Shown here one piece after another: positions 28,550 to 53,700 of a stretch of DNA of 64,000 bases. The stretch's first letter is position 1; each line of letters begins with the position of its first letter. A program made the position numbers and the translations under genes. The notes under the pieces are model-generated. The model was not told where the DNA came from. It did not search any database and was given only the letters and a program-made list of their open reading frames with translations. This DNA comes from Nakamurella lactea DSM 19367 (GTDB lineage Bacteria; Actinomycetota; Actinomycetes; Mycobacteriales; Nakamurellaceae), in assembly GCF_000426645.1 (NCBI RefSeq), contig NZ_AUFT01000007.1:372001-436000 (forward strand). Reading direction: 5' to 3'.

Positions 28550-28568
28550 TCGGCCCCGCAGGCCGATC
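28548..28568. terminator. Perfect 8-bp hairpin at the end of the deacylase gene
   Basis: GATCGGCC and GGCCGATC flank a five-base loop, starting inside the stop codon. There is no T-tract, so it is either an intrinsic terminator of the kind tolerated in high-GC genomes or an mRNA-stabilising stem separating the importer/deacylase genes from the enolase gene. Confidence 0.5.
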
Positions 28569-28608
28569 CGCACCATCTGCCAGTGGTACTACCCGAGAGT
28601 GAGAACAG

Positions 28609-29739: not shown

Positions 29740-29787
29740 GTCCTGGTTTCGGCCGACGACAAGTGCCGCGGCGTCCGTTGGCGTCGG

Positions 29788-29816
29788 CGCCAGGCGACTG
29801 ATTCGCCCGCCTGGCG
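29788..29816. terminator. Perfect 9-bp hairpin after the second enolase-superfamily gene
   Basis: CGCCAGGCG and CGCCTGGCG flank an 11-base loop in the gap before the PIG-L gene. No T-tract. Probably a terminator or attenuator. Confidence 0.5.
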
Positions 29817-29852
29817 GCTGACCATGCGCGGCCCGTCAACGAGGATGCAGCG

Positions 29853-30689: not shown

Positions 30690-30755
30690 CCGATGCGGGC
30701 GGTGGCTGCATAAAACGCAGCGATCAGGCCGGGATGGCTCAGTGGCCGGGGAGCT

Positions 30756-31328
30756 TCACGACCGGAGGAGATCAGCGATGAGCTTCTCGACGCGTGACGG
30801 ATCCCCGCCGGCGAGCAGCCAGTCCGCGGGTGAGGCCGGTGCGTCATCCAGGAACAGCTCACGGTTGGGTGTGGCCATCAGGTTGCTGATCGCCAGCGCA
30901 GGAGTTCCGGACGGGATCGCGGCGATCACCCGGCGCAGCTGCGGGAGCGGACTGTCTTCGGTCAGTTGCCACAATGGCAGCCGCCAGCCGCGGCCCAGCT
31001 TGATGCCGTACAGCGTTCCGTCGGCAATGGCACTGCGGATCCGTTGTTCGGTTCGATGCAGCCGCGCCGCGACCTGCTGAACGGTCGCCGATTGACCGGC
31101 GAGGCGGACGAGGTTGTCGGCGCGGGTGCGGATCAGGTCGTTGGCGACATCGGCGTCGAGGTCGGCTTCCGGCACGCCGACGGCCACCAGGGTCGCGCGG
31201 TCGTGGGAGCTGAGTGCTGCCGGATCCGGTCGGCCGGATTGGGACAGTGTCCGGTCCAGTTCCGCGGTGAAGTCCTTAACGGTCAGCCCATTGCCGTACT
31301 TGTCGAGGATGTCTTCGATGGTTGTCAC
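30756..31328 (-). CDS. Putative DNA-binding protein, excisionase-like HTH with MbcA/ParS-like end
   Basis: 190 residues. A short helical HTH near the middle (VQQVAARLHRTEQRIRSAI then DGTLYGIKLGRGW) resembles helix-turn-helix plus wing of excisionase-type proteins. The end (SPADWLLAGGDPSRVEKLIA) resembles the closing part of MbcA/ParS/Xre antitoxins that normally pair with RES toxins. No RES gene is adjacent; the ThDP enzyme gene upstream on the same strand is unrelated. GTG 31328 is chosen over ATG 31349 because AAGGAGG lies six bases before it. Function is therefore uncertain: autoregulator, orphan antitoxin or regulator of the neighbouring genes. Confidence 0.6.
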   Translation of the reverse strand: MTTIEDILDKYGNGLTVKDFTAELDRTLSQSGRPDPAALSSHDRATLVAVGVPEADLDADVANDLIRTRADNLVRLAGQSATVQQVAARLHRTEQRIRSAIADGTLYGIKLGRGWRLPLWQLTEDSPLPQLRRVIAAIPSGTPALAISNLMATPNRELFLDDAPASPADWLLAGGDPSRVEKLIADLLRS

Positions 31329-31334
31329 CGAGTG

Positions 31335-31341
31335 CCTCCTT
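31335..31341 (-). promoter_or_regulatory. Strong ribosome binding site deciding a GTG start
   Basis: AAGGAGG on the minus strand, six bases before GTG 31328, inside the longer in-frame ORF beginning at ATG 31349. It indicates that the shorter protein is made. Confidence 0.7.
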
Positions 31342-31381
31342 GCGTTCATCCACCCTATAGACGGCGCGCCGACCTGTGCTG

Positions 31382-36128: not shown

Positions 36129-37025
36129 ATGTCGCTTACCCTCCCAGCGGAGCAGACCACGGGTGGTTCCCCTGGGTTGCCACCCGCTGTGCGACGCAAA
36201 CGCAGGACACCGAGCTTTACCACGATCGTGCTGCTGGTTCCGCTGCTGTACATGACGGTGGTGTACGTCATCCCGGTGGGCCAGACCCTGCTGGACAGTG
36301 CCACTGAGCCGGTCGTCGGCTTCGGCAACTTCACGGCAGCGCTCACCGATCCGATCGTCCAGCGAGTCCTGTTGATCACTCTGCGCATCTCGGTCGAAGT
36401 GGCGGTGATCTGTCTGGTTCTCGGACTCCCGGTGGCTTACTTCATGTCCAGGCTGCCGGCGCGCCGGGCCAGGTTGGTTGCGCTGCTGGTGATCATCCCG
36501 TTCTGGACATCGGTGCTGGTCCGCTCCTTCGCGTGGATCGTGCTGCTGGGCGACGACGGTGTGGTGGCCAAGTTGCTGTCACCGTTCACCGGAGGGACCT
36601 CGGGGCTGCTGTACAGCGAGCCCGCAGTGGTGATCTCGATGGTGCATGTGTTGCTGCCGTTCACGATTTTGATCATTAAGTCGACTCTGGACCAGATCGA
36701 CTACAGCTTGATGCGCGCGGCACGAACGTTGGGCGCGGGACCGGTCCGGGCGTTCGTCCGGGTGTACCTCCCGCTTGCAGTCCCTGCGGCGGTCAGCGGG
36801 ACCATGTTGGTCTTCATCATGGGGCTCGGGTACTACATCACGCCGGCGCTCGTCGGCGGTCCCCGGCAGACCATGATCGCGATGTTGATCGAGCGGAAGG
36901 TCAACGTGACCTTCGATTGGCCCGGCGCCGCGGCACTGTCCACGATGCTGCTCGTTGCCTCGGTGGTGCTGTACTTCGTGATCCGCAAGCTCACCAAGGT
37001 CCAGGGCTTGGTAGGTGTCCAGTGA
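36129..37025 (+). CDS. ABC transporter permease, PotB type
   Basis: 298 residues, about six helices, with the polyamine/2-aminoethylphosphonate-type permease layout. The N-terminal tail is basic and cytoplasmic (RRKRRTPSF). The ATPase contact loop is MRAARTLGAGPVRAFVRVYL. The start has GAGGAG upstream and the stop overlaps the GTG of the next gene. The cargo is probably an organic anion or cation related to the CoA genes downstream rather than polyamine. Confidence 0.9.
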   Translation: MSLTLPAEQTTGGSPGLPPAVRRKRRTPSFTTIVLLVPLLYMTVVYVIPVGQTLLDSATEPVVGFGNFTAALTDPIVQRVLLITLRISVEVAVICLVLGLPVAYFMSRLPARRARLVALLVIIPFWTSVLVRSFAWIVLLGDDGVVAKLLSPFTGGTSGLLYSEPAVVISMVHVLLPFTILIIKSTLDQIDYSLMRAARTLGAGPVRAFVRVYLPLAVPAAVSGTMLVFIMGLGYYITPALVGGPRQTMIAMLIERKVNVTFDWPGAAALSTMLLVASVVLYFVIRKLTKVQGLVGVQ

Positions 37026-37918
37026 CCGAAACGGTTGTAGCCCGACGGACCACGAGAACTCGTTCCGGTCTTCCGATGACGGGAATGGAGAAAGCGTTCC
37101 GGTGGGGCCTTCGGATCCTGGTGTGGGCGATCCTCGCGTTCCTGGTGATCCCGATCCTCATCGTCATCGCCGAGTCCTTCAACGGCGTGAACTACTTGGC
37201 ATTCCCGCTCAAAGGGGTTTCGCTCAACGCGTACCGAAAATTCTTCTCCGACTCGTCTTGGGTCGATGCCACCTTGAACAGCGTCCGTATCGCCGTGGTG
37301 GCCGCGCTCATCGCAACCACCATCGGCACGTTGGCCGCCTGGGCGTTAGCCCGCACAAAGAATCGGTCCAAGGGCATCGTCTACGGGATCCTCTACTCGC
37401 CGGTCATCATGCCCCTGATCGTCCTGGCCATCAGTTACTACGCGGTGTTCTCCCGACTCCAGCTGATCGGTGAATGGGTCGCGGTGTCCGTTGCCTATTC
37501 GGTGATGGGTATTCCGTTCGTGCTGGTGGCAGTGTCCAGTGCCCTGCAACACTTCGATCCCGAACTAGAGAACGCCGCGCGGACTCTGGGAGCCGGACCG
37601 GTTCGCACCCTATGGAAGATCACCCTCCCGCGATTGACGTCCGCGATCGGCGCCGGCGCCGTGTTCGCCTTCGTCACCGCGTTCGACGAGGCCGTGATCA
37701 TCCTGTTCGTCGCCGGGAGCGGATCCGTCACACTGCCACGGAAACTCTGGGACAGCGTCCGCTATGACCTCGACCCGACTCTTGCGGTCGCCGGAACCGT
37801 GCTCATTGTCGTATCCGTCGGCCTGTTCTTGCTGGCCGAGCTGTACTCCGCTGTTCGAGACCGACGCCGAACCCGTGCACTTGCAGCAGCGACCGAATTG
37901 GAAGGATCCGATGGCTGA
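37022..37918 (+). CDS. ABC transporter permease, PotC type
   Basis: 298 residues from GTG 37022 (GTGA overlap with the first permease; the longer frame before it is a shadow). Helices begin at about residue 25. The contact loop ENAARTLGAGPVRTLWKITL is typical of PotC. Partner of the upstream permease. The last eight bases overlap the ATPase gene. Confidence 0.9.
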   Translation: MTETVVARRTTRTRSGLPMTGMEKAFRWGLRILVWAILAFLVIPILIVIAESFNGVNYLAFPLKGVSLNAYRKFFSDSSWVDATLNSVRIAVVAALIATTIGTLAAWALARTKNRSKGIVYGILYSPVIMPLIVLAISYYAVFSRLQLIGEWVAVSVAYSVMGIPFVLVAVSSALQHFDPELENAARTLGAGPVRTLWKITLPRLTSAIGAGAVFAFVTAFDEAVIILFVAGSGSVTLPRKLWDSVRYDLDPTLAVAGTVLIVVSVGLFLLAELYSAVRDRRRTRALAAATELEGSDG

Positions 37919-38993
37919 GCAGGTCGTCTTCAAAGGCATCAACAAATCATTCGGCGACGCAGCGGCCGTCGTCGACCTGAACCTCGGCATCGAGAAGGGT
38001 GAATTCTTCACGTTGCTCGGGCCGTCCGGGTCGGGCAAGACAACCACCTTGCGTATGCTGGCCGGTCTCGAGTCGGCAACGTCCGGTGAGATCGAGATCG
38101 ACAACGAGTTAATCACGCACACCGTTCCCGAGAAGAGGAACATCGGGCTCGTTTTCCAGCACTATGCGTTGTTCCCTCACATGACCGTGGCCGACAACGT
38201 CGCCTTCCCACTCAAGATGCGTCGCACTTCGAAAACGGACATCACGACCAAGGTGAACGACGTCCTGTCGATGACGCAACTGTCGGATTACCGGAAGCGC
38301 TATCCGCGGGAGTTGTCGGGCGGTCAGCAGCAGCGAGTTGCGCTGGCCCGCGCATTTGTCTTCTCCCCTTCCATTCTGCTGATGGACGAGCCGCTCGGTG
38401 CGCTGGACCGCAACCTGCGAGACCACATGCGGCTGGAACTCAAGAGTCTGCAACAACGGATCGATGCCACCGTTCTGTATGTCACGCACGATCAGGACGA
38501 AGCGCTGGCCATGTCCGATCGCATCGGCATCATGAACAACGGCCGGCTGCTCCAGGTCGCGCCACCCAACGAGATGTACGAGCGGCCGGCGAACTCCTTC
38601 GTGGCAAAGTTTCTCGGCGACTCGGTCTGTCTGCCCGCCACGCGATCCCGGCCGAATGGCAGCTGCGCGCTAGAGGTCGAACAGCTCTCCGGTCGGGTGC
38701 GGATCGACCCCAGCACCAACCTGTGTGACGACGACACCGGAGTGATGGTGGTGCGACCCGAGAAATTTGTGCTGCACAACAGCGAGCCCGGGGTCTCGGA
38801 CGACAACTGTGTCTCCGGCGTGGTCGAGGCCAGCGTGTACCTCGGCTCGGACCACCAGGTCTACCTCCGCGACGACTCGGGCGCCCGGATCCAGGTGAGC
38901 AGCCCCGCGGCCGCGGGCGCCATCGACGTCGGGTCGCGGCAATGGCTCACCTGGCGCCCCACCGACACCCTGTTCCTCCCGGTCGCCGACTAG
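37911..38993 (+). CDS. ABC transporter ATPase, PotA type
   Basis: 360 residues. Walker A GPSGSGKT, Q-loop VFQHYALFPHMT, signature LSGGQQQR, Walker B ILLMDEP, switch His in VTHDQDEA. A C-terminal TOBE-like regulatory domain (about 245-360) is present, as in PotA. ATG 37911 lies inside the end of the permease gene. The substrate-binding protein for this transporter is not here but 4.3 kb downstream. Confidence 0.92.
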   Translation: MAEQVVFKGINKSFGDAAAVVDLNLGIEKGEFFTLLGPSGSGKTTTLRMLAGLESATSGEIEIDNELITHTVPEKRNIGLVFQHYALFPHMTVADNVAFPLKMRRTSKTDITTKVNDVLSMTQLSDYRKRYPRELSGGQQQRVALARAFVFSPSILLMDEPLGALDRNLRDHMRLELKSLQQRIDATVLYVTHDQDEALAMSDRIGIMNNGRLLQVAPPNEMYERPANSFVAKFLGDSVCLPATRSRPNGSCALEVEQLSGRVRIDPSTNLCDDDTGVMVVRPEKFVLHNSEPGVSDDNCVSGVVEASVYLGSDHQVYLRDDSGARIQVSSPAAAGAIDVGSRQWLTWRPTDTLFLPVAD

Positions 38994-39056: not shown

Positions 39057-39845
39057 ATGGATCTGTCTTCGGTCACTTCCGTCAAACTCAACATCGACGG
39101 CAACGTCGGCATCGTCACCCTGAACCGACCCGACAGGCTCAACGCCATCGACAGCGCCACGATCGGTGATCTCGACCGGGTGTTCGCAGAGATCGCCATC
39201 AACGATGCGGTCCGGGCGGTGGTGATCACCGGCGCCGGGCGCGCATTCTGTGCCGGCGCAGACGTTCAGGAGTGGAGTGAAGGCGACAAGCCGGACGACG
39301 AAGCCTGGCCACCGAAAATGCATCGGTTCATGAGCCGGCTGTATTGGTTGCCGAAACCCGTTATTGCAGCGGTCAACGGGGTAGCAGTCGGCGCCGGCTG
39401 CGATATCACGCTCACCGCCGATATCCGTATCGCCTCCACGGCAGCGCGTTTTGGCGAGGTGTACATGCGTTTGGGGTTCTGCCCGGACGCCGGGGGCTCG
39501 TTCCTGCTGCCGCGGATCGTCGGCGAGTCGCGCGCTGCCGAGATGATCTACACCGGACGGATCATCGAGGCCGCCGAAGCGGACAGCATCGGACTGGTCA
39601 GCGAGGTGGTCAGCCCGGATGAACTCCTGCCGCGGGCAATGGAGGTCGCCGGCGGCTTGGCGGCCGGACCGACCACTGCCATCGGCATCGCGAAGCAGAA
39701 CCTCCGACACAACTCCCTGGTCTCCTTCGATGAAGCGCTCCGGATCGAACTTCGTGGGGGGGAGCTGTGCGGGAAGACCGCCGACCACGTCGAGGGCCTG
39801 AAGGCGACGGTCGAGAAGCGGCAGCCGAAGTTCGTGGGCCACTGA
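39057..39845 (+). CDS. Enoyl-CoA hydratase/isomerase family protein
   Basis: 262 residues, crotonase fold. Oxyanion-hole motifs are GAGRAFCAGADV and NGVAVGAGCDI. The two catalytic Glu of classical hydratases are not conserved: the GGCEL position has Asp116, and the QPE position has Tyr136. An Asp144 in FCPDAGGS matches the acidic residue used by dienoyl-CoA isomerases and PaaG-type isomerases, so isomerase activity or another crotonase reaction is more likely than plain hydration. Its stop overlaps the ATG of the acyl-CoA synthetase (TGATG). It is the first enzyme after the importer, in a long forward gene row. Confidence 0.85.
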   Translation: MDLSSVTSVKLNIDGNVGIVTLNRPDRLNAIDSATIGDLDRVFAEIAINDAVRAVVITGAGRAFCAGADVQEWSEGDKPDDEAWPPKMHRFMSRLYWLPKPVIAAVNGVAVGAGCDITLTADIRIASTAARFGEVYMRLGFCPDAGGSFLLPRIVGESRAAEMIYTGRIIEAAEADSIGLVSEVVSPDELLPRAMEVAGGLAAGPTTAIGIAKQNLRHNSLVSFDEALRIELRGGELCGKTADHVEGLKATVEKRQPKFVGH

Positions 39846-42001
39846 TGAACTCATCCGACCACCCGCTGCATCCGTTGTTCGCGCCGCGAAGTGTCGCGGT
39901 CGTCGGTGCGTCGCCCAAGGGCGGATACGGCCTGACTACGCTGCAGAACCTCGCCGGTGTCGGTTACCACGGACGACTGTGGGCGGTGCACCCCCGCCTG
40001 GACTTCGTGGGCGGTGTCGAGGCATTCCCCACTTTGTCGGCGCTCCCGGGCGTGCCGGACGCGATCGCGGTGGCCGTCCCAGCGGCATCCACCCCACAGG
40101 TCCTGGCGGAGGCGGCGAGCCTGGGTGTCCGCGGTGCCGTGGTGTACGCGAGCGGCTTCGCCGAACTGGGCCAACGCGGTGAACCTCTGCAGCGACAGCT
40201 GCGGGCGGCGTGTGGTGATTCACTGAAGATGATCGGCCCCAATTGTCTGGGAATAGCCGGATTTCGGGACCGCACTGCGCTTTGGGGCATCACGATGCCG
40301 TACCGGCATGCCGATACGGACGGAACGGTTGCGCTCGCCGCGCAAAGCGGCAACATGGCACTGACGCTGATGCACTCCGGCCGGATACCCGCTGTCGCTT
40401 ATGCGGTTTCCGCGGGCAACCAGGCGGTGCTCGATGTCACTGACTGCCTCGACTACTTCCTCACGGACCCGCAGGTCCGGGTGGTCGGACTGATCGTCGA
40501 AGGGTTCCGGGACCTTCCGCGATTCCGGAAGCTGGCGCTGCAGGCGTCGGCAGCGGGTGTTGCCATCGCGGTGCTCAAAGTCGGTCGATCCGCCCAAGGC
40601 GAGAAGGCGACGGTCGCCCACACCGGGACGCTGGCAGGCAGCGACGCCGCTTACGGCGCGTTGTTCGAGCAGACCGGGGTGATCCGCGTGGACGACCTGG
40701 ACGAGCTGGTCGCCGTCTGCACCCTCTTGTCGGGATCGGTGCGGCCCCGCGGCCCGCGTCTCGGGGTGTTCGCCAGCTCGGGCGGTGAGTGTGGGCTGAT
40801 CGCCGACCTCGCCGAGCCGGCGGGTGTTCAGCTACCTGAGTTGGATACCGAGACCGCCCGCCGGCTCCGGGAGCTGGTGCCGGCCTACGGCTCGGTGGGC
40901 AACCCGTTCGACCTGACCGCCGGCGGCTGGGGAGACCAGGAAATCTATGCCGCATCCGTCGCAGCCCTGGGCCAATGCCCGACGACCGACGTCGTGGCGT
41001 TCGTCGGCGACGCGCCGACCGCTGCCGGCCGGCCGCAGGACTCGGGTTGGGTGGAGATGGTCGGCGGCGCAGGCAAAGCGGCAACGGAGCTGGACGTTCC
41101 GGTCGCGCTGATGACGACCACCACCGACGTCTCGGGCGAATTGGTTGAGCTGGCCAGGGAGAGCGGGATTCTGCTGCTTGCCGGGCTGCGGCCGGCATTG
41201 CGGGCTATCGGCCTGGCGGGGCGGTGGGCCAACGGACCGGTTGCCTCGACTGATGACGTCGACCTGCCAGCGGTCTCGTCCCCCGACGCCGAACAGGTGC
41301 GCACCCTGTTGGACCAGCATCCCGCTGCAGTGCTCACCGAGACCGAGGCGAAGCAAGTCATTTCCTGCTACGGAATTTCGGTCCCGGACGGCGGGACAGT
41401 TAACGACCGCGACTCCGCGGCCGAGTTGGCCGCTGCGGTCGGGTTTCCGGTGGTCGCCAAGATTGTCGCCGACAACTTGGCGCACAAGAGCGACGTCGGC
41501 GGCGTGCTTCTGAATCTGTCGACGCCGGCCGCCGTCCGCGATGCCTACGACCGCCTGATGACGCAGGCCGAGACCACCGAGGCCACCCGGATCCACGGCG
41601 TCCGGATCGAGCAGATGGTGGGAACCTCCGGGATCGAGATGATCGTCGGCGGCCGCAACGACCGGGCCGGTTCGCTGGTCGTGATCGGGGCCGGTGGGCT
41701 GCTGACGGAGCTGATGGCGGACGCCGGTCGATTGCTATGGCCATACAGCAGGAGCGACGTGCTGGCCGTGCTCGGGCGACTGCGGGTAAATCGGCTGCTC
41801 GCCGGATACCGGGGCGCCGCGCCGGTGGATGTGGGCGCGCTGATCGAAGTGGTGCTTCGGGTGGGACGCCTGTTGGCCGATCATCCCGGCATAGCCGAGA
41901 TCGATATCAACCCGCTACTGGTGCCACCGCCCGGTTCGCCGTGCCAGGCACTCGATGCACTGATCGTCACGGCGGATCCGTCTGCCACCGAGGAAGGATG
42001 A
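39845..42001 (+). CDS. ADP-forming acyl-CoA synthetase, fused alpha-beta
   Basis: 718 residues. CoA-binding/ligase part first (FAPRSVAVVGASPKGGYG; the phosphorylated His is in VAHTGTLAGSD) and an ATP-grasp part from about residue 490 (PVVAKIVADNLAHKSDVGGV). It makes an acyl-CoA from a carboxylate, ATP and CoA, releasing ADP and phosphate. It is likely the activation step for the imported carboxylate. Translation is coupled to the crotonase gene. Related Pat-type acetyltransferases carry a GNAT domain; none is seen here. Confidence 0.88.
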   Translation: MNSSDHPLHPLFAPRSVAVVGASPKGGYGLTTLQNLAGVGYHGRLWAVHPRLDFVGGVEAFPTLSALPGVPDAIAVAVPAASTPQVLAEAASLGVRGAVVYASGFAELGQRGEPLQRQLRAACGDSLKMIGPNCLGIAGFRDRTALWGITMPYRHADTDGTVALAAQSGNMALTLMHSGRIPAVAYAVSAGNQAVLDVTDCLDYFLTDPQVRVVGLIVEGFRDLPRFRKLALQASAAGVAIAVLKVGRSAQGEKATVAHTGTLAGSDAAYGALFEQTGVIRVDDLDELVAVCTLLSGSVRPRGPRLGVFASSGGECGLIADLAEPAGVQLPELDTETARRLRELVPAYGSVGNPFDLTAGGWGDQEIYAASVAALGQCPTTDVVAFVGDAPTAAGRPQDSGWVEMVGGAGKAATELDVPVALMTTTTDVSGELVELARESGILLLAGLRPALRAIGLAGRWANGPVASTDDVDLPAVSSPDAEQVRTLLDQHPAAVLTETEAKQVISCYGISVPDGGTVNDRDSAAELAAAVGFPVVAKIVADNLAHKSDVGGVLLNLSTPAAVRDAYDRLMTQAETTEATRIHGVRIEQMVGTSGIEMIVGGRNDRAGSLVVIGAGGLLTELMADAGRLLWPYSRSDVLAVLGRLRVNRLLAGYRGAAPVDVGALIEVVLRVGRLLADHPGIAEIDINPLLVPPPGSPCQALDALIVTADPSATEEG

Positions 42002-42011
42002 CCCAAACGCC

Positions 42012-43175
42012 ATGGACTTCACCATCTCAGAAGAAATGACCGAATTCCGCGGAATCGTCCGCACTTTCGTGGAGAACGAGCTGATCCCCTGGGAGGACCA
42101 CGTTGAGGAGCACGACGGGTTGCCCGAGGACGTCGAACGTGAGCTACGGATCAAGGCGGTGAAGCTCGGCCTCGCCGGCCTGGGAATGCCCGAGGAGGTC
42201 GGTGGCGCCGGATTCGGCACGCTGGACCAGGTGCTGATCGTGGAAGAGACGTCACGCGCCCTCGGCGGAGTCTCCTCCGGAACGATCCCCGGAGCGTCCA
42301 ACATTCTTCTGGCCTGCACGCCGGAACAACGTGAGCGCTTTCTCTACCCGTGCATCCGCGGCGAAAAGCAGGACTGCTTCGCGTTGACGGAGCCCGACAC
42401 CGGATCCGACGCCGCCGGCATCAAGACCCACGCCGAACTGGTGGACGGCCGATGGCGGCTCAACGGCCGCAAACGCTTCATCAGCCATGGTGACTCCGCC
42501 GATTTCGCGATCGTCTTCGCCGTCACCCACCCGGACCAGGAGGACGACCGCATCACCGCGTTCCTGGTGGAGAAGGGCACCCCGGGATTCTCGGTCGGCC
42601 AGGTGCACAAGACGATGGGGCATCGCGGCTACCGGCAGGCTGAACTGGTGTTTGACGACTGCATGATCGACTCGGCAAATGTGCTCGGCGAACCGGGCCA
42701 GGGGTTCGTCCTGGCCCGGGACTGGCTGCGCAACGGGCGCATCATGACGGCCGCGCGCTGCCTCGGGCCGATGGCGCGGCTCATCGACGAGGCACTGGAG
42801 TGGTCCAAGCAACGGGTCCAGTTCGGCCAGCCGATCGCCGACTTCCAGGCCATCCAGTTCATGCTCGCCGACTGCGCCACTGATCTGTACGCCTCCCGCA
42901 TGATGACCTACAACGTCGCCTGGGACGACGACCAAGGCCAGGACCCGAAGATGGTGTCGGCCAAGGCATCCGCCACCAAAGTGTTCGCCAGCGAAGCGCT
43001 CGGTCGTGTCGTCGACCGAGTGCTGCAGATCTTCGGCGGAACCGGATATATGAACGAGATGTTTGTGGAGCGCGCGTACCGCAACGCGCGGATCGAGCGC
43101 ATCTGGGAAGGGACCTCGGAGATCCAGCGGGTGATCCTGGCCCGCAGTCTGCTCAAGCGCGGCATGTTCGCCTGA
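42012..43175 (+). CDS. Acyl-CoA dehydrogenase
   Basis: 387 residues, standard length. FAD/substrate motifs: ALTEPDTGSDAAGIKT, GRKRFISHG, FGGTGYMNEMF, and the catalytic Glu in ERIWEGTSEIQR. It introduces a double bond alpha-beta to the CoA thioester, passing electrons to ETF. It is 10 bases downstream of the acyl-CoA synthetase, fitting a synthetase-then-dehydrogenase order. It is closer to the medium/isovaleryl general group than to the FadE-type steroid heterotetramers, since no half-site partner gene is present. Confidence 0.92.
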   Translation: MDFTISEEMTEFRGIVRTFVENELIPWEDHVEEHDGLPEDVERELRIKAVKLGLAGLGMPEEVGGAGFGTLDQVLIVEETSRALGGVSSGTIPGASNILLACTPEQRERFLYPCIRGEKQDCFALTEPDTGSDAAGIKTHAELVDGRWRLNGRKRFISHGDSADFAIVFAVTHPDQEDDRITAFLVEKGTPGFSVGQVHKTMGHRGYRQAELVFDDCMIDSANVLGEPGQGFVLARDWLRNGRIMTAARCLGPMARLIDEALEWSKQRVQFGQPIADFQAIQFMLADCATDLYASRMMTYNVAWDDDQGQDPKMVSAKASATKVFASEALGRVVDRVLQIFGGTGYMNEMFVERAYRNARIERIWEGTSEIQRVILARSLLKRGMFA

Positions 43176-43273: not shown

Positions 43274-44428
43274 ATGGCCCGCAAACCAGTGTCCGCATCG
43301 CTGTTCAACGTCGGAATGAACCGACGTGATCTGCTCCGGCGGTCCGCCATGATGGCCGGCGGAGCGCTGGCGCTCGGCGGAGCGGGATCGTTGTTGGCCG
43401 CCTGTGGCGGCGACCCCACTAAGGCGGCACAGGGCGGAGAGCCGGCCGTGTCCGGTGGCGGCGGATCGAACAAAAAGGTCGTCGTAGCCGACTGGGGTGG
43501 CGCCATTCAGGACGCGGAGAAGACATACCTCTACGAGCCGTTCACCAAGGAAACAGGCATCGAGGTGGTGATCTCCGGCCCACCGTCCGACGCAAAGATC
43601 AAGGCCATGGTCGATTCCGGCAACGTCGAATGGGATCTGGTGGCCGGAAGCAAGTCGAATGTGCTCAGCCTCGGCTCGGAGTACTTCGAAGAATTTCCGG
43701 AGCGACTGCATTCGATCAAGGGTATGGATCCGGCCTTCACCGACAAACAAGCGATTGCCTACTACGTCTTCTCGACCAACATCGGCTGGAACGCCGAAAC
43801 CCTCAATGGCAAGAAGATGGAGAATTGGGCAGACTTCTTCGACACGAGCACGTTCCCCGGCAAGCGCACCATGGGTGGTATCGAGGGCGGCGGCAATCCC
43901 GAGTTGGAGTTCGCTCTGCTCGCCGACGGTGTGGCCAGGGACAAGCTGTACCCGCTGGACGTGGACCGAGCGTTCAAGAAGATGGAGGAGATCAAGGGCA
44001 GCGTCCCCCAGTGGTGGTCCTCAGGCTCCCAACCCGGGCAGATGTTGGTGTCCAAGCAGGTTGCGGCGGCCAGTATCTGGAGCGGCCGGGTCTTCACCCT
44101 GCAGGGCGAGAAGGCGCCGATCGACTTCACCTGGAACGACGGCATGTACACGCCGGCGGCCTGGATCATCCCCAAGGGCGCTCAGAACAAGGACGCGGCC
44201 ATCCAGCTCGCGGAGTACTCCGTGCAGCCGGAGGTCCAGGCACGGCTATGGGGCAATTATCCATGTGGGCCGACGAACTCGTTGGCCCTCGCCAAAATGG
44301 ATGAGGAATGGGCCATCAAGCTGCCAACTCACCCCGATCACGCCGCGGTGCAATTCATCAACAATGCGGAATGGTGGGGAGAGAACCGCGACATGGTGTT
44401 CAAGCGTTGGAACGAGTTCTCCCTCTGA
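43274..44428 (+). CDS. ABC transporter substrate-binding lipoprotein, PotD type
   Basis: 384 residues. A twin-arginine-like lipoprotein signal (NRRDLLRRSAMMAGGALALG, lipobox LLAAC) is followed by a Gly-rich linker and a PotD/AfuA-like binding domain (VVVADWGGAIQDAEKTYLYE). ATG 43274 has AAGGAGAT just upstream. It is the only binding protein for the polyamine-type permeases and ATPase 4.3 kb upstream, separated from them by three CoA enzymes, an unusual arrangement that ties transport and metabolism together. Cargo unknown. Confidence 0.9.
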   Translation: MARKPVSASLFNVGMNRRDLLRRSAMMAGGALALGGAGSLLAACGGDPTKAAQGGEPAVSGGGGSNKKVVVADWGGAIQDAEKTYLYEPFTKETGIEVVISGPPSDAKIKAMVDSGNVEWDLVAGSKSNVLSLGSEYFEEFPERLHSIKGMDPAFTDKQAIAYYVFSTNIGWNAETLNGKKMENWADFFDTSTFPGKRTMGGIEGGGNPELEFALLADGVARDKLYPLDVDRAFKKMEEIKGSVPQWWSSGSQPGQMLVSKQVAAASIWSGRVFTLQGEKAPIDFTWNDGMYTPAAWIIPKGAQNKDAAIQLAEYSVQPEVQARLWGNYPCGPTNSLALAKMDEEWAIKLPTHPDHAAVQFINNAEWWGENRDMVFKRWNEFSL

Positions 44429-44525: not shown

Positions 44526-45683
44526 ATGAGATCGACCCGGAGCCTGCGCGGCGAAGCGGCTATCGTCGGCATCGCCGAAGCCGCATCACCCACCGGTGAG
44601 CTGCCCGCGCGCGGGCGCACCCTAGAGGCACAGGTGATCAAGGCTGCACTGGACGATGCAGGTCTTACGTTGGCCGACGTCGATGGCGTGGCCCACGCCG
44701 ATTCATCCCTTGACCTCGCCGAGTTCCTGTCGATCGCGCCGGCCTTCACCGAATCCACTTACACCGGTGGCAGTGGGTACGAGCTGTATGTGGAGAAGGC
44801 GGCTGCGGCGATTGCCACCGGACTCGCCGAGACCATCGTGATCGTCTACGCGGCAACGCCGCGCAGCGACCGCAAACAAGGACTGGGAGGTTGGGTGGAG
44901 CCTGCCGGCCCACGGGACGAGTTCGAGGTCCCGTACGGGCTCGGCCTGATGGGTTCGTACGCGCTAGCCGCTGATCGGCACATGAGCCAGTACGGCACCA
45001 CGGAAGAACAGCTCGCCTCTATCGCTGTCGCGACCCGCCAGTGGGCCGGATTCAATCCGATGGCCAGGTTCACCGACCCACTCACCGTGGACGATGTGTT
45101 GGCCTCTCCGAGGATCTGCTCGCCGCTGCATCAGCTGGACTGCTGTCTGGTGACCGACGGCGCCGGAGCGATCGTGGTGACCAGCACTGAACGGGCGAAG
45201 GACCTGCGGAATCCGGTCGTCCCGGTGCTCGGGGCTGCAAGTCTGCACTCCCACAACATGATCCACGCGATGCCTGATCTCACTGTCACCCCCGGGGCCA
45301 TCACTGGCAAACGTGCGCTGGACCACGCCGGAGTCACCGCCGGCGACGTCGGCCTGCTGATGGGATACGACTCGTTCACCATCACCGCTCTGTTGCATTT
45401 GGAAGATCTCGGATTTGTCCCGAAGGGCGAGGCGGGTGCTTTCGTCGCCGACGGAAATACCAGGCCAGGCGGCTCGTTGCCGATGAACACCAACGGCGGT
45501 GGGCTGTCCTACACCCATCCCGGCATGTACGGGATCTTCCTGTTGACCGAGGCTGTTCGACAACTGCGGGGCGCTGCGGGCGCGCGGCAGATCCAGGATC
45601 TGGAGATTGCAGTCGCACATGGCTCTGGCCAGTTCCTTTCGGCGATGTCCACCGTGGTGCTGGGAACGGAGGCTGCGCTGTGA
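44526..45683 (+). CDS. Thiolase-fold lipid-transfer-like protein, catalytic Cys absent (putative aldolase)
   Basis: 385 residues, thiolase superfamily of the Ltp/SCP2 kind. Where thiolases have the acyl-Cys the sequence reads YTGGSGYELYVEKAAAAIA, with Ser83 near that spot and no Cys. The closing Cys-x-Gly-x-Gly is AHGSGQ (Cys replaced by His). The catalytic His is kept in THPGMYG. Loss of both cysteines argues against thiolysis and fits retro-aldol cleavage, as in Ltp2-type steroid side-chain aldolases, which need a DUF35 partner. The DUF35 gene follows at once with a GTGA overlap. The combination is strong evidence for a two-subunit acyl-CoA aldolase. Confidence 0.85.
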   Translation: MRSTRSLRGEAAIVGIAEAASPTGELPARGRTLEAQVIKAALDDAGLTLADVDGVAHADSSLDLAEFLSIAPAFTESTYTGGSGYELYVEKAAAAIATGLAETIVIVYAATPRSDRKQGLGGWVEPAGPRDEFEVPYGLGLMGSYALAADRHMSQYGTTEEQLASIAVATRQWAGFNPMARFTDPLTVDDVLASPRICSPLHQLDCCLVTDGAGAIVVTSTERAKDLRNPVVPVLGAASLHSHNMIHAMPDLTVTPGAITGKRALDHAGVTAGDVGLLMGYDSFTITALLHLEDLGFVPKGEAGAFVADGNTRPGGSLPMNTNGGGLSYTHPGMYGIFLLTEAVRQLRGAAGARQIQDLEIAVAHGSGQFLSAMSTVVLGTEAAL

Positions 45684-46090
45684 GCCGGAACGAGTTCGCG
45701 CCACTCCCGTCCGCCGCGACCGCGCGGTATTGGGCGGCGACTCGGGAGCGTCGCCTGCTCTTGCAGTGGTGTCCGAACTGTGAACGTCATGTGCACCATC
45801 CGCGCGAGGCCTGTCCGGGCTGCCTGTCCACCGAACTTCAGTGGCGCGAGTCGGCGGGGAGAGGGACGGTACATGCCGTCTCGGTGCACTATCGGCCGTT
45901 CGCGCCGATGACTGCCGAGGACTGCCCCTACGCCGTGGCCTTCGTCGACCTGGAGGACGGGGTCCGGTTCCTGGCGAACGTCACGGCCGACGACCTGGAG
46001 GCCATCCGCGTCGGCGACCCCGTGTCCCTGCAGTGGAGTCCGATCGCCGATGGATACCACCTACCGGTGTTTCATGCGAATGCTCACTGA
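45680..46090 (+). CDS. DUF35 OB-fold protein with zinc ribbon
   Basis: 136 residues. The N-terminal rubredoxin-like zinc ribbon has four Cys in WCPNCERHVHHPREACPGC, then a C-terminal OB-fold (VHAVSVHYRPFAPM, PYAVAFVDLEDGVRFLANV). Such proteins bind acyl-CoA and form complexes with Cys-less thiolase-like aldolases or with HMG-CoA/thiolase enzymes. GTG 45680 overlaps the thiolase-like gene's stop. It is probably the obligate partner of that protein. Confidence 0.9.
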   Translation: MSRNEFAPLPSAATARYWAATRERRLLLQWCPNCERHVHHPREACPGCLSTELQWRESAGRGTVHAVSVHYRPFAPMTAEDCPYAVAFVDLEDGVRFLANVTADDLEAIRVGDPVSLQWSPIADGYHLPVFHANAH

Positions 46091-46107: not shown

Positions 46108-47298
46108 GTGTCTCACTCGGCGTTCGCCAGAACCTTGCTGTCGATGTGGTGGGTCTACCTGTCGGTCGGCGTGCTGATTCCGCTGGTGCCGCACTGGATC
46201 GTCGGCGAACTCAACGGTTCCGGGACCGATGTCGGCGTCACCGTGTTTGTCTACGGTGTGGCCAGCATCGCCTCGCGGCCCCTGGCCGGCGCCTACCTCC
46301 GACGGGGGCGCCCGGAGAGGTTGATGACGGCCGCCGTCGCCGTCGGCGCAGTGGCACTGGTCGCGACACCGCTGGTCCCGCAGCTCGCCTGGATGTGGGG
46401 CCTGCGATTCATCGATGGTGCTGCGGTCGGTCTGTTTTACACGTGCGCCGCAACGGGTGTGGTGCGCTCGACCACCGCGGCGCGTCGCGGAAGTACGCTG
46501 GCCGTGTTCTCCGTGCCGTTGTTCTCGGGCGTCGCGTTCGGGCCAGTGGTCGGGGACTGGGCGATGGAACACCTGTCCGCCGGCTGGGTCTGGGTGCTGT
46601 CCGGAGGGCTGATGTCGCTGGCGATCGGCAGCACCGTCTTCGGTGTTGCGCTGTTCGGCGACCCGCCGGCCGACCAGTCGGAACAAATCAGCCCGATGCT
46701 GTTGCTCCGGGCGCTGGCCCATCCGGCCGCCGTGCGGCCGGCCGCGGTCCTGGCTCTCTCCATTGCCGGATGGGCGGCCTTCCAGGCGTTCGTCCCGCTG
46801 TACGGGCCGACGATCGGTTTGGCGGCAACGGGAACAGTGTTCCTGACCTACTCGGCCGCCGTCATCGTCATCCGCATCGGCGGTGCTCGATGGTTCGACC
46901 GCATGCCGATCATCGAAGTGATCACGATCGGCTGTCTGGCCAACATCTGCGGCCTGTTGCTGGCTGCGCTATGGCGCCGGCCGGCGGCGCTGTTCCTGGC
47001 CGCCGGTTTGATGGCGATCGCGATCGCCCTGATGTACACGACCTTGATGCAGGTTGCCCTCGACGGGGCGCCGCGCCGCGACGAAGGTCTGGTGGTCGCG
47101 GCCTACAGCGTCTCCTACGACGTGGGCGCGGGGCTCGGTGGCGCTGCGCTCGGCGTGGTGATGACCTGGACCGGCTCCTACACAGTGGTTTTCATCGGAG
47201 GCGCGGCAGCCGGCGTGCTCGCATTGGCCCTGCTACTGCAATCGTTCTGGCCGCGGCGGGCGCGTTACGCCCCGGTCCGGCCGCTGCCGGCAGATTGA
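46108..47298 (+). CDS. MFS transporter
   Basis: 396 residues, 12 predicted helices in two halves. Motif-like stretches are AYLRRGRPERLM between helices 2 and 3 and GPVVGDW near helix 5. GTG 46108 is chosen, with AGGGGG upstream; the frame before it is a shadow of the DUF35 gene. It lies within the CoA gene row, so it could import or export the pathway substrate or product. No drug-resistance signature stands out. Confidence 0.85.
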   Translation: MSHSAFARTLLSMWWVYLSVGVLIPLVPHWIVGELNGSGTDVGVTVFVYGVASIASRPLAGAYLRRGRPERLMTAAVAVGAVALVATPLVPQLAWMWGLRFIDGAAVGLFYTCAATGVVRSTTAARRGSTLAVFSVPLFSGVAFGPVVGDWAMEHLSAGWVWVLSGGLMSLAIGSTVFGVALFGDPPADQSEQISPMLLLRALAHPAAVRPAAVLALSIAGWAAFQAFVPLYGPTIGLAATGTVFLTYSAAVIVIRIGGARWFDRMPIIEVITIGCLANICGLLLAALWRRPAALFLAAGLMAIAIALMYTTLMQVALDGAPRRDEGLVVAAYSVSYDVGAGLGGAALGVVMTWTGSYTVVFIGGAAAGVLALALLLQSFWPRRARYAPVRPLPAD

Positions 47299-47353: not shown

Positions 47354-48187
47354 ATGACGATGGAATCACTTGATGGACGGGCCTTTGTGGTGACTGGTGG
47401 TGGCTCGGGGATTGGCAGAGCCACTGCGCTGCGGCTGATGGAACTTGGCGCGTCGGTGACGGTGGCCGGCCGCACCGAGGAGCGCCTTCGCGAGGTCGTC
47501 GCCGCGGGCGAGGGGCTCAGCGGTACTGCGATGGCCCGGGTGACCGATGTTCGGGATCCAGAGGCGGTCGAGGGCATGGTCGCCGATACGGTCGAGCGCT
47601 TCGGTCGGATCGATGGCCTGGTCAACAACGCTGCCGGCAATTTCGTCTGCCCGGCAGAGGATCTGAGCACCAACGGCTGGCGGGCGGTGATCGACATCGT
47701 GCTCAACGGCAGCTGGCATTGCGCGTCGGCGGTGGGTCGGGCCTTGATCGCGGCTGACCGGCCAGGAGCAATCCTGTCGGTGGTCGCCAGCTACGCCTGG
47801 CTGGGACATCCGGGCACCGTACACTCGGCGGCGGCGAAGGCCGGGGTGGTAACGATGACCCGGACCCTGGCCGCGGAGTGGGCCCGGTACGGGATCAGGG
47901 CCAACTGCATTTCGCCCGGGCCGACCACGACCGAAGGTGCTGGTGCCGCGCTCTGGGCCACCGCTGCGGAGCGGGAACGGGTGTTGGAATCGGTGCCGGC
48001 CCGTCGGTTCGCAGAGCCGGCCGAGATCGCTGATATAGCCGGCTTTCTCCTGTCAGATCGGGCCGGCTACATCACCGGCGAAGTACTCTCGGCCGACGGT
48101 GGGCAGTCTCTGGGTGCGCAGGTGTACGGCACTCCGGTCGCAGAATTGACCCGACCACGAACGACCGCTCCGGCAGCGGGTCGCTGA
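47354..48187 (+). CDS. SDR-family dehydrogenase/reductase
   Basis: 277 residues. Motif VTGGGSGIGR, NNAAGN, and a C-terminal ITGEVLSADGG. The catalytic Tyr-x-x-x-Lys position reads HSAAAKAG, with His where Tyr is usual and Lys kept, as in 2,4-dienoyl-CoA reductases of the SDR family. That points to enoyl or dienoyl-CoA reduction rather than alcohol oxidation (inference). It is one base before the next SDR gene and is likely co-transcribed. Confidence 0.87.
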   Translation: MTMESLDGRAFVVTGGGSGIGRATALRLMELGASVTVAGRTEERLREVVAAGEGLSGTAMARVTDVRDPEAVEGMVADTVERFGRIDGLVNNAAGNFVCPAEDLSTNGWRAVIDIVLNGSWHCASAVGRALIAADRPGAILSVVASYAWLGHPGTVHSAAAKAGVVTMTRTLAAEWARYGIRANCISPGPTTTEGAGAALWATAAERERVLESVPARRFAEPAEIADIAGFLLSDRAGYITGEVLSADGGQSLGAQVYGTPVAELTRPRTTAPAAGR

Positions 48188-48188
48188 C

Positions 48189-49076
48189 ATGGGTCGCCTC
48201 GACGGTTGCGTCGCTATCGTGACCGGAGCCGGCCGTGGTCTCGGTAGGGCGCACGCCTTGTGTCTGGCTGCCGAGGGCGCATCGGTGGTGGTCAATGACC
48301 TGGGTAGTGCACGCGACGGCGGCGGCTCCGACTGCTCGCCGGCCGACGCCGTCGTGCACGAGGTTCGGGCAGCTGGCGGATCGGCGATCGCCGACCACGG
48401 AGACGTCAGCGACCTGGATCAGGCAGAACGGATGGTGAACACCGCGGTCGCGGAGTTCGGCCGGCTCGACGCGGTGGTGAACAACGCCGGAATCCTGCGA
48501 GACAGGATGCTGTTCAACATGTCCGGCGAGGATTGGGACGCCGTGATGCGCGTGCACCTGAAAGGCTCGTTCGCGCTGACCCACCATGCCGTGCGGCACT
48601 GGCGAGCGCTTGTCAAGGACGGTCAACAAGTGGACGCCCGGATCGTCTGCACCTCGTCGCCGAGTGGGCTCTACGGCAACGTCGGCCAGGCGAACTACGC
48701 TGCGGCCAAGGCCGGCCTGGTCGGCTTCACGCTGACCCTGGCGAAAGAGGTCGAGAAGTATGGGATCGCCGTGAATGCGCTCTCCCCAGGGGCTCGTACC
48801 CGGATGACGGAGGGGCTGTTCGACATGGACGAGGGCGCCGACCTATGGGCGCCGGAGAATGTCTCACCCGCGTTGGCGTGGCTGCTGTCGGACGCTGCCC
48901 GCGGTCTGACGGGGACAGTGCTGGAGGTCGAGGCCGGGTGGGTCGGGTTCGCCGCACCGTGGACGCACGGACCTCGGAGACGACAGACCGACCGGCACTG
49001 GAGTGTCGACGACGTTGATCGGGTGATGCCCGAGCTATGGCGGGACTATCGGGAATCGGTCGAGGACCGGCAGTGA
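48189..49076 (+). CDS. SDR-family 3-hydroxyacyl-CoA dehydrogenase-like protein
   Basis: 295 residues. TGAGRGLGRAHALCLA is the multifunctional enzyme type 2 variant of the cofactor motif. NNAGILRD follows, then catalytic Ser in CTSSPSGLYG and Tyr-Lys in QANYAAAKAG. The closest family is the dehydrogenase domain of peroxisomal MFE-2, which oxidises (R)-3-hydroxyacyl-CoA. The GTG of the following MaoC-like hydratase overlaps its stop, recreating the MFE-2 dehydrogenase-hydratase pair as two genes. A classical beta-oxidation step may therefore run in parallel with aldol cleavage. Confidence 0.9.
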   Translation: MGRLDGCVAIVTGAGRGLGRAHALCLAAEGASVVVNDLGSARDGGGSDCSPADAVVHEVRAAGGSAIADHGDVSDLDQAERMVNTAVAEFGRLDAVVNNAGILRDRMLFNMSGEDWDAVMRVHLKGSFALTHHAVRHWRALVKDGQQVDARIVCTSSPSGLYGNVGQANYAAAKAGLVGFTLTLAKEVEKYGIAVNALSPGARTRMTEGLFDMDEGADLWAPENVSPALAWLLSDAARGLTGTVLEVEAGWVGFAAPWTHGPRRRQTDRHWSVDDVDRVMPELWRDYRESVEDRQ

Positions 49077-49915
49077 CGGGCGCGCTCGATTCCGACGAAT
49101 GGAGCGTCGGCAGGCCAGTGACAGTGGAGCAGGAAGCCGTCGCCCAGTTCGCCGAGGCCGTCGGTGAGCAGTCCGGCGACGACTGGCTGGCCAGCTCGCG
49201 CTCGACGGAACTGTTGGTGCCGGCGACATTTCCGGTGACGTTGGTGTGGTCGGTCCAGAATCTGGCACTTCAGTCGGTATATCAGGGTCCGGGGCTGGGA
49301 TTGCACGGAGAGCACGCGTTCGCCTACCACCGTCCTGTCCGGGTCGGGATGACGCTGCAGCCACGTGCACGGGTCGTCGCTGTCGTGCCGAAAATGGCCG
49401 GCACGGTCGTGGTCTGCCGCAGCGAGTTGCTCGATGACGCCGGCCCGGTGTGCACTCAGCTCTTCACCCTGTTCCAGGTGAACGAGTCACTGCATCCGAT
49501 GGGTGAGCCGGCACGGCTCGACGGCGATCCGGGGAACCCCGGCGACGTTGCGGACCGCCCGTCCCTGGGCGAGCTCACCGAGTCGGTTGCCGGTGATCAG
49601 TCGTATCGCTATGCGGCGGCGTCGGGCGACGGCTACCGGATCCATACGGACGAGGTTTTCGCTACGGGTCAGGGTCTGGACGGGATCATTCTGCACGGAA
49701 TGTGCACCCTGGCCTTCGCCGCCCGAGCTGTCGTCGCCCTGGCAGCGGGCGGAGATCCGGCTCGGCTGGCCTTCCTCGGTGCACGCTTCTCGACACCGGT
49801 CCGTCCCGGCCACACTTTGACTACGACAGTGTCCGGCTCATCGGCGGGCGGGTTCACCACGACGGCGGACGACGTACCTGTGCTGACCCGAGGTCGGTGG
49901 GCCGTCCAAGGGTAA
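49073..49915 (+). CDS. MaoC-like dehydratase (hot-dog fold, two-domain)
   Basis: 280 residues: an N-terminal MaoC-N-like hot-dog domain (about 10-140) and a C-terminal MaoC domain (about 150-280) with the hydratase-type helix GLDGIILHGMCTLAFAARA. It resembles (R)-specific enoyl-CoA hydratase 2. The residues around DGYRIHTDEVFA correspond to the catalytic Asp/His region (N/D-x-x-x-x-H). The GTG at 49073 overlaps the dehydrogenase stop. Last gene of the CoA module. Confidence 0.87.
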   Translation: MTGALDSDEWSVGRPVTVEQEAVAQFAEAVGEQSGDDWLASSRSTELLVPATFPVTLVWSVQNLALQSVYQGPGLGLHGEHAFAYHRPVRVGMTLQPRARVVAVVPKMAGTVVVCRSELLDDAGPVCTQLFTLFQVNESLHPMGEPARLDGDPGNPGDVADRPSLGELTESVAGDQSYRYAAASGDGYRIHTDEVFATGQGLDGIILHGMCTLAFAARAVVALAAGGDPARLAFLGARFSTPVRPGHTLTTTVSGSSAGGFTTTADDVPVLTRGRWAVQG

Positions 49916-50515: not shown

Positions 50516-50749
50516 CCGGTAGGCGCTTCGTGGTACGCGCGGGCAACGCGTCTCGGTCAGTCTCGGAGCGTGTTGTTGGAGGGCTTCGACACGAAGGCCC
50601 GATGCATCGGATCTATGGCCGCCGTCATCCGTCACCCATTTGGCAAACCCCGCATCGTTGACGTGCTTCCGCGGTCCGCCTACAGTCCAATCGAGCCAAA
50701 CATCGGAGGAATCCGGTGCCGCCGTCGGCAACGAAGCCCAGGAGCACGC

Positions 50750-53700
50750 ATGATCGAGTATCCGCCCGTCAGCACAACGACCATGCGGTGGGGCCCGGTC
50801 CGCCGGATCGGGATGGTGGCGGTGGCCTTGGCGACCGGGGTACTCGGAGTCGTTGCGGTTCCGACGTCCGCCCAGGCGGCAGCGGGCGGGACGACGATCT
50901 ACGTCGCCACTACGGGCGACGACGGCAATTCCGGCACCAGCGCCGACGCTCCGGTCGCGGATCTGGCAAAGGCCCAGCAGTTGGTCAGGGCCGCGCTGCC
51001 GACGGCTACCGGAGCGATCACCGTCGAGGTCGCGGCCGGCACCTACTACCAATCCGCACCGCTCGAGTTCGGCCCCGCGGACTCCGGCACTGCCGAGGCG
51101 CCTGTCACCTGGCACGCAGCCACCGGAACCACCATCAGCGGTGGGCGGGCGCTGCACCCGACGTGGGCGCCGCAATCTGCCGGCAGCCACGTCATGGTCG
51201 CGACGCTGCCGGCCGGACTCGACTTCGACGGGCTGTTCGTCAACGGCAAGCGACAGATACTCGCCCGCTACCCCAACTTCGACGCCGGCGCGAAGCGCCT
51301 CGGCGGCTCGACCAGCATCGCCACGCTGAACTCCAGATCGGCGAACTGGTCCGACCCGACCACCGGATTCGTCCGCGGCATGCACTGCGGTGACTGGGGG
51401 AGCGTGTCGTTCACCATCACCGGGCGAACGGCCGACGCTCTGCAACTGCACTATGTGGGCGACAATAACCGCGCCCAGGACTGCAACCGGACTCTGCCGT
51501 ACAACAGCAACGTGGTGATGGCCGAAAACATCAAGGAAGAGCTGGACGCCCCGGGCGAATGGTTCTACGACCACACCGGCGGGCAGCTGCTGTACTACCC
51601 GCCCACCGGCACCGACCTGTCGACGGCAACCGTGGAAACCGCCGAACTCAACGAGCTGGTCCGCCTCACCGGCGAATCTGACACCGCGCCGATCCACGAC
51701 ATCACCTTCGACGGATTCCGCTTCGCCGACACCCACCGCACCCTGTTCAACAGCACCTTCGAGGGCCTGGCCAAGGGCGACTGGTCGGTGGTCCGCAAGG
51801 GCGCCGTCTACCTGAAGAACGCGGCGAACATCGTCATCGCCCATGCGCAGTTCGATGCCGTCGGCGGCAACGGGGTCTTCATGGACGGCTACAACAAGGG
51901 AAACGTGGTCAGCCACAGCACCTTCAGTGGCAGCGGTGCCAGCGACGTGCAGGTGGTCGGCTCACCCGACGCCGTCCGTGAGTACTCCGGCAACTACCAC
52001 ACCCAGATCCCGGTCGCCGATCTGACGGCGGGGCCGGCGTCGGAGAACTATCCGCGGGACATCGACATCACCGACAACCTGATGCAGAACATGGGCCGCT
52101 TCGAGGTCCAGTCCTCGGGCGTCAACATCTCGATGAGCCGCGACGTGACCGTCGACGGCAACACGATGAGCGGGAGCCCCCGCGCCTGCCTCAACTTCGA
52201 GGACGGCACCTGGGGCGGGCACGTCATCAAGAACAATGATCTCTACGACTGTGTCTCCGGCAGCGGCGACAACGGATCGATCAACGCCTGGGGTCGATCA
52301 CGTTTCTGGGCATCAGGTTCGGCCGGCAGCAACAATGTGCTCGCCTCCACCGGCCAGCCGATGGACGACGCAACGGCGCGGCAGATCATGAAGCTGGACC
52401 AGGTCGAGCCGACCACCATCGAACACAACCGGTTCTGGCACGACGGCGACTGGGCCATCGACCTGGATGATGGAACGTCGAACATGGTGCTGCGCAACAA
52501 CCTGCTGCTGGACGGTGGCATCAAACTGCGCGATGGCTTCGAACGCACCGTTGAGAACAACATTCTGGTCAGCGGGCACGTCTACGAACAGGTCAGCCAC
52601 GCCGACGGCGGCGACGTCATCGAGCACAACATCACCCTGGGCGGCACCGCCTACGAGAACACCCAGAACAAGCCGGCCGTCAACAAGTACGCGATCGATG
52701 CGAACCTGTTCTGGAACGGCGGTTCGCCGATCGGTATCACCCCGGACAACTCGCACCCTGGGGAGAAGCTGTCGACCGACGGCAAGACCCTGAACGCGGC
52801 GTCGTCGTGGGTGCAGGCCGGGATGGACGTCCACTCGCTGATCATCGACCCGAAGTTCACCGCCGACGACCCGACCGAGACCTACGACTTCACCGTCGCC
52901 GCGGACTCGCCGGCGATCGGGCTGGGCTTCGTCAACTTCCCGATGACGGGGTTCGGCGCCACCGGAGCGCCGTTGCCGCCGAAGGCGCAGCTGCCGTACG
53001 GCGAGGGGAGCGGTCCGGCGGATCCGCTGCTCGTCCAGCCCGAAAAGCTCATGGGCGCAACGGCAACCAATGTCTCCTCGCTGGCCATCCAGTCGTCCCT
53101 GGGTCTGACGAACAACTTCGGCCTGTACCTGACGGACGTACCGGACGGCTCCTACGCCGCTGACGCCGGACTGCAGTCCAGTGACGACATCCTGCAGATC
53201 AACGGACACGGCGTGACGGCCGACCGGAACACCTTCTGGAAGGTCTACAACTCGCTGGCGGCCGGCGACGACATCAACCTCGGCGTGCGGCGCGGGCAGA
53301 CCGACATCACCGTGCAGCTGACCAAGACGGATCAGCCGGAGCAGCTCAACAACACCTCCGGCGTCGCCTACACCAACACCGGAGCGCCGACCACCGGCTG
53401 GATCTGGCGTGGCGGCAACACCGGTGGCGGCGGGTCGTATCTGGAGGACATCTGGGCCACTCAGAACCTGGGCGATTCCTGGCGTCTGGCGTTCAACGGC
53501 ACCGGTCTGGACATCATCTCGCAGACCAACTCCGACGAGGGTGACGTCGACATCGCCGTCGACGGGACCTTTTACAAGACAGTGAGTTTCAGAACGTCGA
53601 CCCGTGTCTACCAGAGCACCGTGCTGTCGATCTCGGGCTTGCCGGCAGGGACCCATACGATCACCGGCACGATGAAGTCCGGCGGGTACATGATCGTGGA

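Follow-up and report, generated by a model that had tools for sequence, protein, structure and literature searches.

A cysteine-less thiolase-fold protein and its stand-alone DUF35 partner in Nakamurella lactea: a probable acyl-CoA aldolase pair with its own active-site pattern

Characterised relatives in the thiolase superfamily that carry a YDxF tyrosine are retro-aldolases, and a DUF35 protein serves several such systems as a partner. Stand-alone DUF35 partners are already known, namely, in BbsAB, IpfDE, and Atf1/ChsH4. The benzoylsuccinyl-CoA thiolase BbsAB (7PXP) is a DUF35-thiolase with a 3-oxo substrate. In ibuprofen degradation (plasmid pIBU218), the thiolase-like IpfD is encoded next to the stand-alone DUF35 protein IpfE, and has been assigned, in work that included a mutant, a retro-aldolase role in which a non-steroid is cleaved to release propionyl-CoA (PMC9195938). 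In Mycolicibacterium neoaurum, the aldolase Atf1 and the stand-alone DUF35 gene for ChsH4 lie end to head (PMC10398937). In the steroid aldolase TcLtp2–ChsH2(DUF35) (6OK1), which acts on the steroid C3 side chain, DUF35 is a domain of a hydratase; in the bile acid aldolase CtSal–CtShy(DUF35) (9MYR), DUF35 is fused to a hydratase and has a C3H1 zinc finger. The published catalytic residues are Tyr294/Tyr344 for TcLtp2 and Tyr302/Cys304 for CtSal; the YDxF Tyr is experimentally essential in both, the C304S variant of CtSal is inactive, and the nucleophile position of CtSal is a Gly (PMC12329534).

This study analysed a stretch of 64,000 nucleotides of Nakamurella lactea DSM 19367 (hereafter the window), in which two genes at positions 44526 to 46090 encode a thiolase-like protein (385 aa, ATG start) and a DUF35 protein (136 aa, GTG start). 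Pfam assigns the former to Thiolase_C_1 (192 bits) and the latter to zf-ChsH2 and OB_ChsH2_C, i.e., DUF35; NCBIfam places the former in PRK06158, 'acetyl-CoA acetyltransferase' (444.4 bits, passing the cut-off of 421). The stop of the first gene and the start of the second share four nucleotides, GTGA (45680–45683, + strand), an overlap that had been reported in a preliminary description and agrees with the ORF coordinates; through it the two genes may be translationally coupled. The features of the pair are:

44526..45683, + strand: Cys-less SCP2-thiolase-fold protein, probable DUF35-dependent acyl-CoA aldolase (Pfam, NCBIfam, alignment, tree, fold)
44769..44771, + strand: Gly82 codon, position of the thiolase nucleophile (alignment; Gly in CtSal too, PMC12329534)
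45366..45377, + strand: YDSF motif, Tyr281 proposed catalytic base (corresponding to Tyr294 of TcLtp2 and Tyr302 of CtSal, PMC12329534)
45516..45518, + strand: codon of His331, the thiolase His that is kept, putative general acid (aligned with Tyr344 of TcLtp2 and Gln352 of CtSal)
45618..45620, + strand: codon of His365, where thiolases have their C-terminal Cys (alignment)
45680..46090, + strand: stand-alone DUF35 protein, 136 aa, with a zinc ribbon C31-x2-C34-x10-C45-x2-C48 and an OB fold

An alignment with thiolases whose Cys are intact (7yvy and L034) bears out the earlier claim that the catalytic cysteines are missing and the catalytic His is kept. Gly82 occupies the column of the nucleophilic Cys, YDSF (281–284) replaces the HDCF/HDAF motif and thereby places Ser283 at its Cys, and His365 stands in the C-terminal Cys column, whereas the His of the thiolase GHP motif is retained as His331 within THPGM. 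The only Cys residues of the protein are 198, 206, and 207, none of them at a catalytic position, and the search of a corrected alignment for such a Cys, which had been named as a finding that would speak against the claim, yielded none.

Relatives were retrieved with the patterns DCCLV[TS]DG and HM[HS]x[YF]GTTxE, so that conservation of DCC is biased by the retrieval, and Tyr281 and His331 lie outside both patterns. Among the best 80 of 597 candidates, a choice that favours close relatives, Tyr281 and His331 are each present in 80 of 80 and Gly82 in 79 of 79; at residue 283, 54 of the 80 have Ala and 25 have Ser, and position 365 is His in 68 of the 80 and hence not invariant. Four of these 80 (L066, L070, L072, and L079) have a Cys at the His365 position (CGSGG), with the nucleophilic Cys still absent, and may possibly form a functional subgroup. 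A shifted catalytic Cys at position 207 was also considered and rejected, as its invariance is biased by the DCC in the retrieval pattern and CtSal lacks it.

The window pair is no oddity: it is common in bacteria, with at least 595 related loci in genome contigs, and 575 plasmid records contain a match of some kind. The best matches listed come from Actinomycetota, Pseudomonadota, Bacillota, Chloroflexi, and one haloarchaeon. Scored by tblastn, 82 of 85 loci have a DUF35 gene next to the thiolase-like one (77 of the 80 best genome loci and 5 of 5 plasmid loci), in the order DUF35–thiolase in 54 of the paired loci and thiolase–DUF35 in 28. A stand-alone partner, first regarded as a departure from the norm, is thus the rule in this family, as well as being published for Atf1/ChsH4 and found beside IpfD. 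Both gene orders show overlaps of exactly 4 nt, in 59 of the 82 paired loci, a count that is perhaps somewhat high because the script took the start codon nearest to the neighbouring stop. Together with the conservation of Tyr281 and His331, these overlaps mean that the pairing and the residue pattern are not due to chance. In the single-contig genome G032, the sole such thiolase and the sole DUF35 lie side by side, and G001 has two of each, with each thiolase beside one DUF35; no true Ltp2 was found in either genome, where an Ltp2 query matches only the pair's thiolase-like genes (33–37%). In the genus of the window, 3 of 17 genomes carry a close relative, a frequency that fits an accessory catabolic module.

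The DUF35 protein of the window has a C4 zinc ribbon. In 29 of 83 aligned DUF35 proteins (the one in the window included), the full CCCC set of zinc ligands is absent, e.g., in the partners of L037, L063, L080, L103, L120, and L126, and therefore zinc may be dispensable in thiolase–DUF35 pairing.

The solved structures nearest in sequence to the thiolase-like protein are 4u4e (E 8e-108), 6ok1 (Ltp2), and 9myr (Sal), an order also returned by Foldseek, and the best matches of the DUF35 subunit are the DUF35 chains of 6ok1 (Ltp2 complex) and 9myr (Sal complex). An AlphaFold2 model of the thiolase-like protein has a mean pLDDT of 86.3 and a pTM of 0.89, with low values at 117–139 and at 330–333; the latter is the loop of His331 (pLDDT < 50), where the geometry of the model is not established. 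The model superposes on 9myr (CtSal) with Z 50.0, on 6ok1 (TcLtp2) with Z 48.8, and on 4u4e with Z 48.6, compared with about 46 for TbSLP and about 31 for classical thiolases. In a maximum-likelihood tree, the window protein falls into a 36-row clade with 4u4e (SH-aLRT 98), and Ltp2 (100), Sal (100), and a group containing IpfD (99) are separate; the tree was a quick one with several long branches and SH-aLRT values without bootstrap, and its deeper order is unsure. The clade signature is Tyr281 in YD[A/S]F with the invariant His331, as opposed to YDHF with Tyr in Ltp2 and YDCY with Gln in Sal. Predicted fold, residue pattern, conservation, gene pairing, and clade are in this way established for the window pair. 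A shared fold is no proof of function for the window protein.

The pair is part of a same-strand gene run at about 36 to 50 kb of the window, in which it is accompanied by:

36129..38993, + strand: permeases and ATPase of a Pot-like ABC transporter, first genes of the run
39057..39845, + strand: enoyl-CoA hydratase (crotonase)
39842..42001, + strand: ADP-forming acyl-CoA ligase
42012..43175, + strand: acyl-CoA dehydrogenase (ACAD)
43277..44428, + strand: ABC transporter substrate-binding protein
46108..47298, + strand: MFS transporter
47354..48187, + strand: SDR oxidoreductase
48189..49076, + strand: SDR oxidoreductase (PRK07791)
49037..49915, + strand: double-hotdog protein of the MaoC/hydratase-2 type, candidate hydratase for the step before the aldolase

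The closest relatives among the matches listed (76%) are on two Streptomyces plasmids, in compact clusters together with an Lrp regulator, an acetate--CoA-ligase-family protein, an amino-acid-type ABC transporter, MaoC, and FabG; these clusters also share a conserved 163-aa protein that has no Pfam match (L035:7734-8222, L036:7783-8274). By tblastn with family representatives, which gives approximate counts, the neighbours in 65 long loci are SDR (39), ACAD (38), crotonase (31), MaoC (30), CaiB (25), AMP-binding ligase (21), and tripartite carboxylate binding protein (19). Pfam scans around other close relatives revealed no common substrate; transporters and ligases vary among loci, and therefore the substrate probably differs between them. 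Elsewhere in the window, the translations at 25450–34449 suggest a distinct group of genes similar to those for the catabolism of aromatic side chains (amino-acid ABC transporter, amidohydrolase, mandelate-racemase-like, ThDP-dependent decarboxylase-like, and aldehyde dehydrogenase genes), and the translation at 50570–54541, a large secreted protein, resembles a right-handed beta-helix with a region similar to PDZ.

The reading favoured here, with moderate confidence, is that the genes at 44526–46090 encode a two-subunit, DUF35-dependent retro-aldolase of the thiolase superfamily acting on non-steroid 3-hydroxyacyl-CoAs. We infer that the two proteins form a complex, in which the stand-alone DUF35 subunit would probably complete the substrate cleft of the Cys-less thiolase-fold subunit. 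A 3-hydroxyacyl-CoA, formed by the products of the ligase, dehydrogenase, and hydratase genes nearby, would be cleaved to acetyl- or propionyl-CoA and an aldehyde or ketone. Tyr281 would act as the base that removes the proton of the 3-hydroxyl group, and His331 as the acid that protonates the enolate. The base Tyr of the published aldolases is present in the window protein, and neither of their acids is; residue 283 is Ala or Ser and therefore could not be the acid, leaving His331 as the probable one by elimination. The retro-aldolase reading draws support from the nearest folds of the model (the Sal–DUF35 and Ltp2–DUF35 aldolases and 4u4e), from DUF35 adjacency and the nearby genes for CoA activation, dehydrogenation, and hydration, and, by analogy, from the retro-aldol role of IpfD (40% identity; PMC9195938).

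What argues against a retro-aldolase is the frequency of SDR neighbours (39 of 65 long loci, with two SDR genes in the window run), which are unneeded for cleavage in a simple hydratase–aldolase route; a 3-oxoacyl-CoA substrate is therefore possible. In such a Cys-independent retro-Claisen reaction, which is considered unlikely, an SDR would oxidise the 3-hydroxyacyl-CoA, and the pair, with water activated by His331/His365, would yield a carboxylic acid and an acyl-CoA. The retained thiolase His, the other His in the column of the C-terminal Cys, the lack of a Cys-thiolase among the scanned genes of the run, and the precedent of BbsAB are consistent with this. However, the YDxF Tyr belongs to the characterised aldolases and is absent from the thiolases compared, His365 varies, and we know of no such hydrolase with a thiolase fold. 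Very unlikely is the reverse, biosynthetic direction, i.e., aldol/Claisen-type C–C bond formation, or promiscuous acyl transfer, as the neighbours serve mostly uptake and CoA-dependent catabolism and PhlC-type chemistry relies on a Cys, even though the relative L051 adjoins a ketosynthase gene. DUF35-thiolase-fold systems such as PhlABC do form C–C bonds (PMC6392133). As for the annotated acetyl-CoA acetyltransferase, whose NCBIfam model is passed, its name is an annotation and not a test; of the residues of a catalytic thiolase, the GHP His is present, but the nucleophilic and the acid/base Cys are absent, no other Cys takes a catalytic position, and the relatives lack the nucleophile as well, so that this function is scarcely credible.

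That the pair might instead be an Ltp2- or Sal-like steroid aldolase working together with steroid-type side-chain genes in other parts of the contig is quite improbable. Besides the similar folds, the same contig (C5) does carry such genes: about 284 kb from the window pair (416.5 kb), a true Ltp2 lies at C5:132 kb (PRK07855, 679 bits, passing the cut-off of 469; 604 bits to 6ok1), preceded by two ACADs and accompanied by a DUF35 match at 130 kb. An Ltp2-clade paralogue at C5:153745-154863 (L004) has YDAF in place of YDHF and its own adjacent DUF35, and a Sal-like gene (YDCY) at C5:203422-204633 (L002) has no DUF35 gene near; zf-ChsH2 matches in this genome occur only at C5:130, 153, and 417 kb. 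Side-chain genes only are the basis on which the organism might be said to degrade steroids. The genome thus has separate steroid-type aldolases, its own Ltp2 among them, but the window pair differs in clade and residues, and relatives occur in a complete genome without Ltp2, in Bacillota, and in a haloarchaeon. With members of the clade in that complete genome and beside non-steroid CoA catabolic genes, a non-steroid substrate, as first suggested, is probable. The initial likening to Ltp2-type aldolases stands as regards kinship with DUF35-dependent aldolases; membership of Ltp2 itself is rejected by motif (YDSF and His331, with no second catalytic Tyr and no YDHF His), by HMM score (PRK07855, 237.6 bits vs the cut-off of 469), and by the tree. 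A Sal bile acid aldolase was likewise rejected, given YDSF in place of YDCY with its essential Cys.

If the retro-aldolase reading is correct, the catabolic routes predicted around the pair would change: cleavage would already take place on the hydroxy compound, thiolysis would drop out, and the products would be aldehydes or ketones. Retro-aldol chemistry would have arisen on the thiolase fold with no fewer than three kinds of acid residue, and the clade would be a source of CoA aldolases that are not specific for steroids. Many genomes carry the pair as 'acetyl-CoA acetyltransferase', a reaction that the protein very probably cannot perform. A wider proposal, advanced only tentatively, is that PRK06158 and its relatives, a large group, may all be wrongly annotated and be DUF35-dependent retro-aldolases whose active site works in a third way (Tyr as base, the retained thiolase His as acid) on non-steroid, perhaps beta-branched, 3-hydroxyacyl-CoAs; they could give bacteria, and at least one haloarchaeon, a generally usable substitute for thiolysis, and a subset of them would employ DUF35 proteins that have lost their zinc ligands.

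Compared with known systems, the window pair shares with TcLtp2–ChsH2 the fold, the Gly at the nucleophile site, the YDxF Tyr, and a DUF35 partner (PMC12329534), but has YDSF instead of YDHF, His331 in the column of the acid Tyr344, a DUF35 that is no hydratase domain, and a place in a different clade. With CtSal–CtShy it has in common the fold, the Tyr base, the nucleophile-site Gly, and a DUF35 partner, whereas CtSal has YDCY with the essential Cys304 and Gln352 at the position of His331. IpfD likewise adjoins a stand-alone DUF35 and acts on a non-steroid, yet has YDAF with a Tyr at the position of His331 and belongs to a separate clade. Atf1/ChsH4, likened here by description and not by sequence, performs steroid C22–C23 cleavage. 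BbsAB shares the stand-alone DUF35 with a thiolase subunit and the GHP His, but has an HDAF motif and is a thiolase. Of the solved structures, the nearest in sequence is 4U4E, a putative thiolase of Sphaerobacter thermophilus that carries no assigned function, with about 50% identity and the same clade and motifs (YDSF, SYTHPGMYG, and HGTGG), which unlike the window pair appears in the match lists as a thiolase chain only, with no DUF35 chain. The literature search found no paper on 4U4E or the window subfamily and no biochemistry for any member of the clade, so that the function of this clade and its Tyr/His site appear to be undescribed in the literature searched. With the YDxF Tyr, no nucleophilic Cys, and the SCP2-thiolase fold, the window protein is best placed within the DUF35-dependent thiolase-fold aldolases, as a putative aldolase and a variant with its own active-site arrangement.
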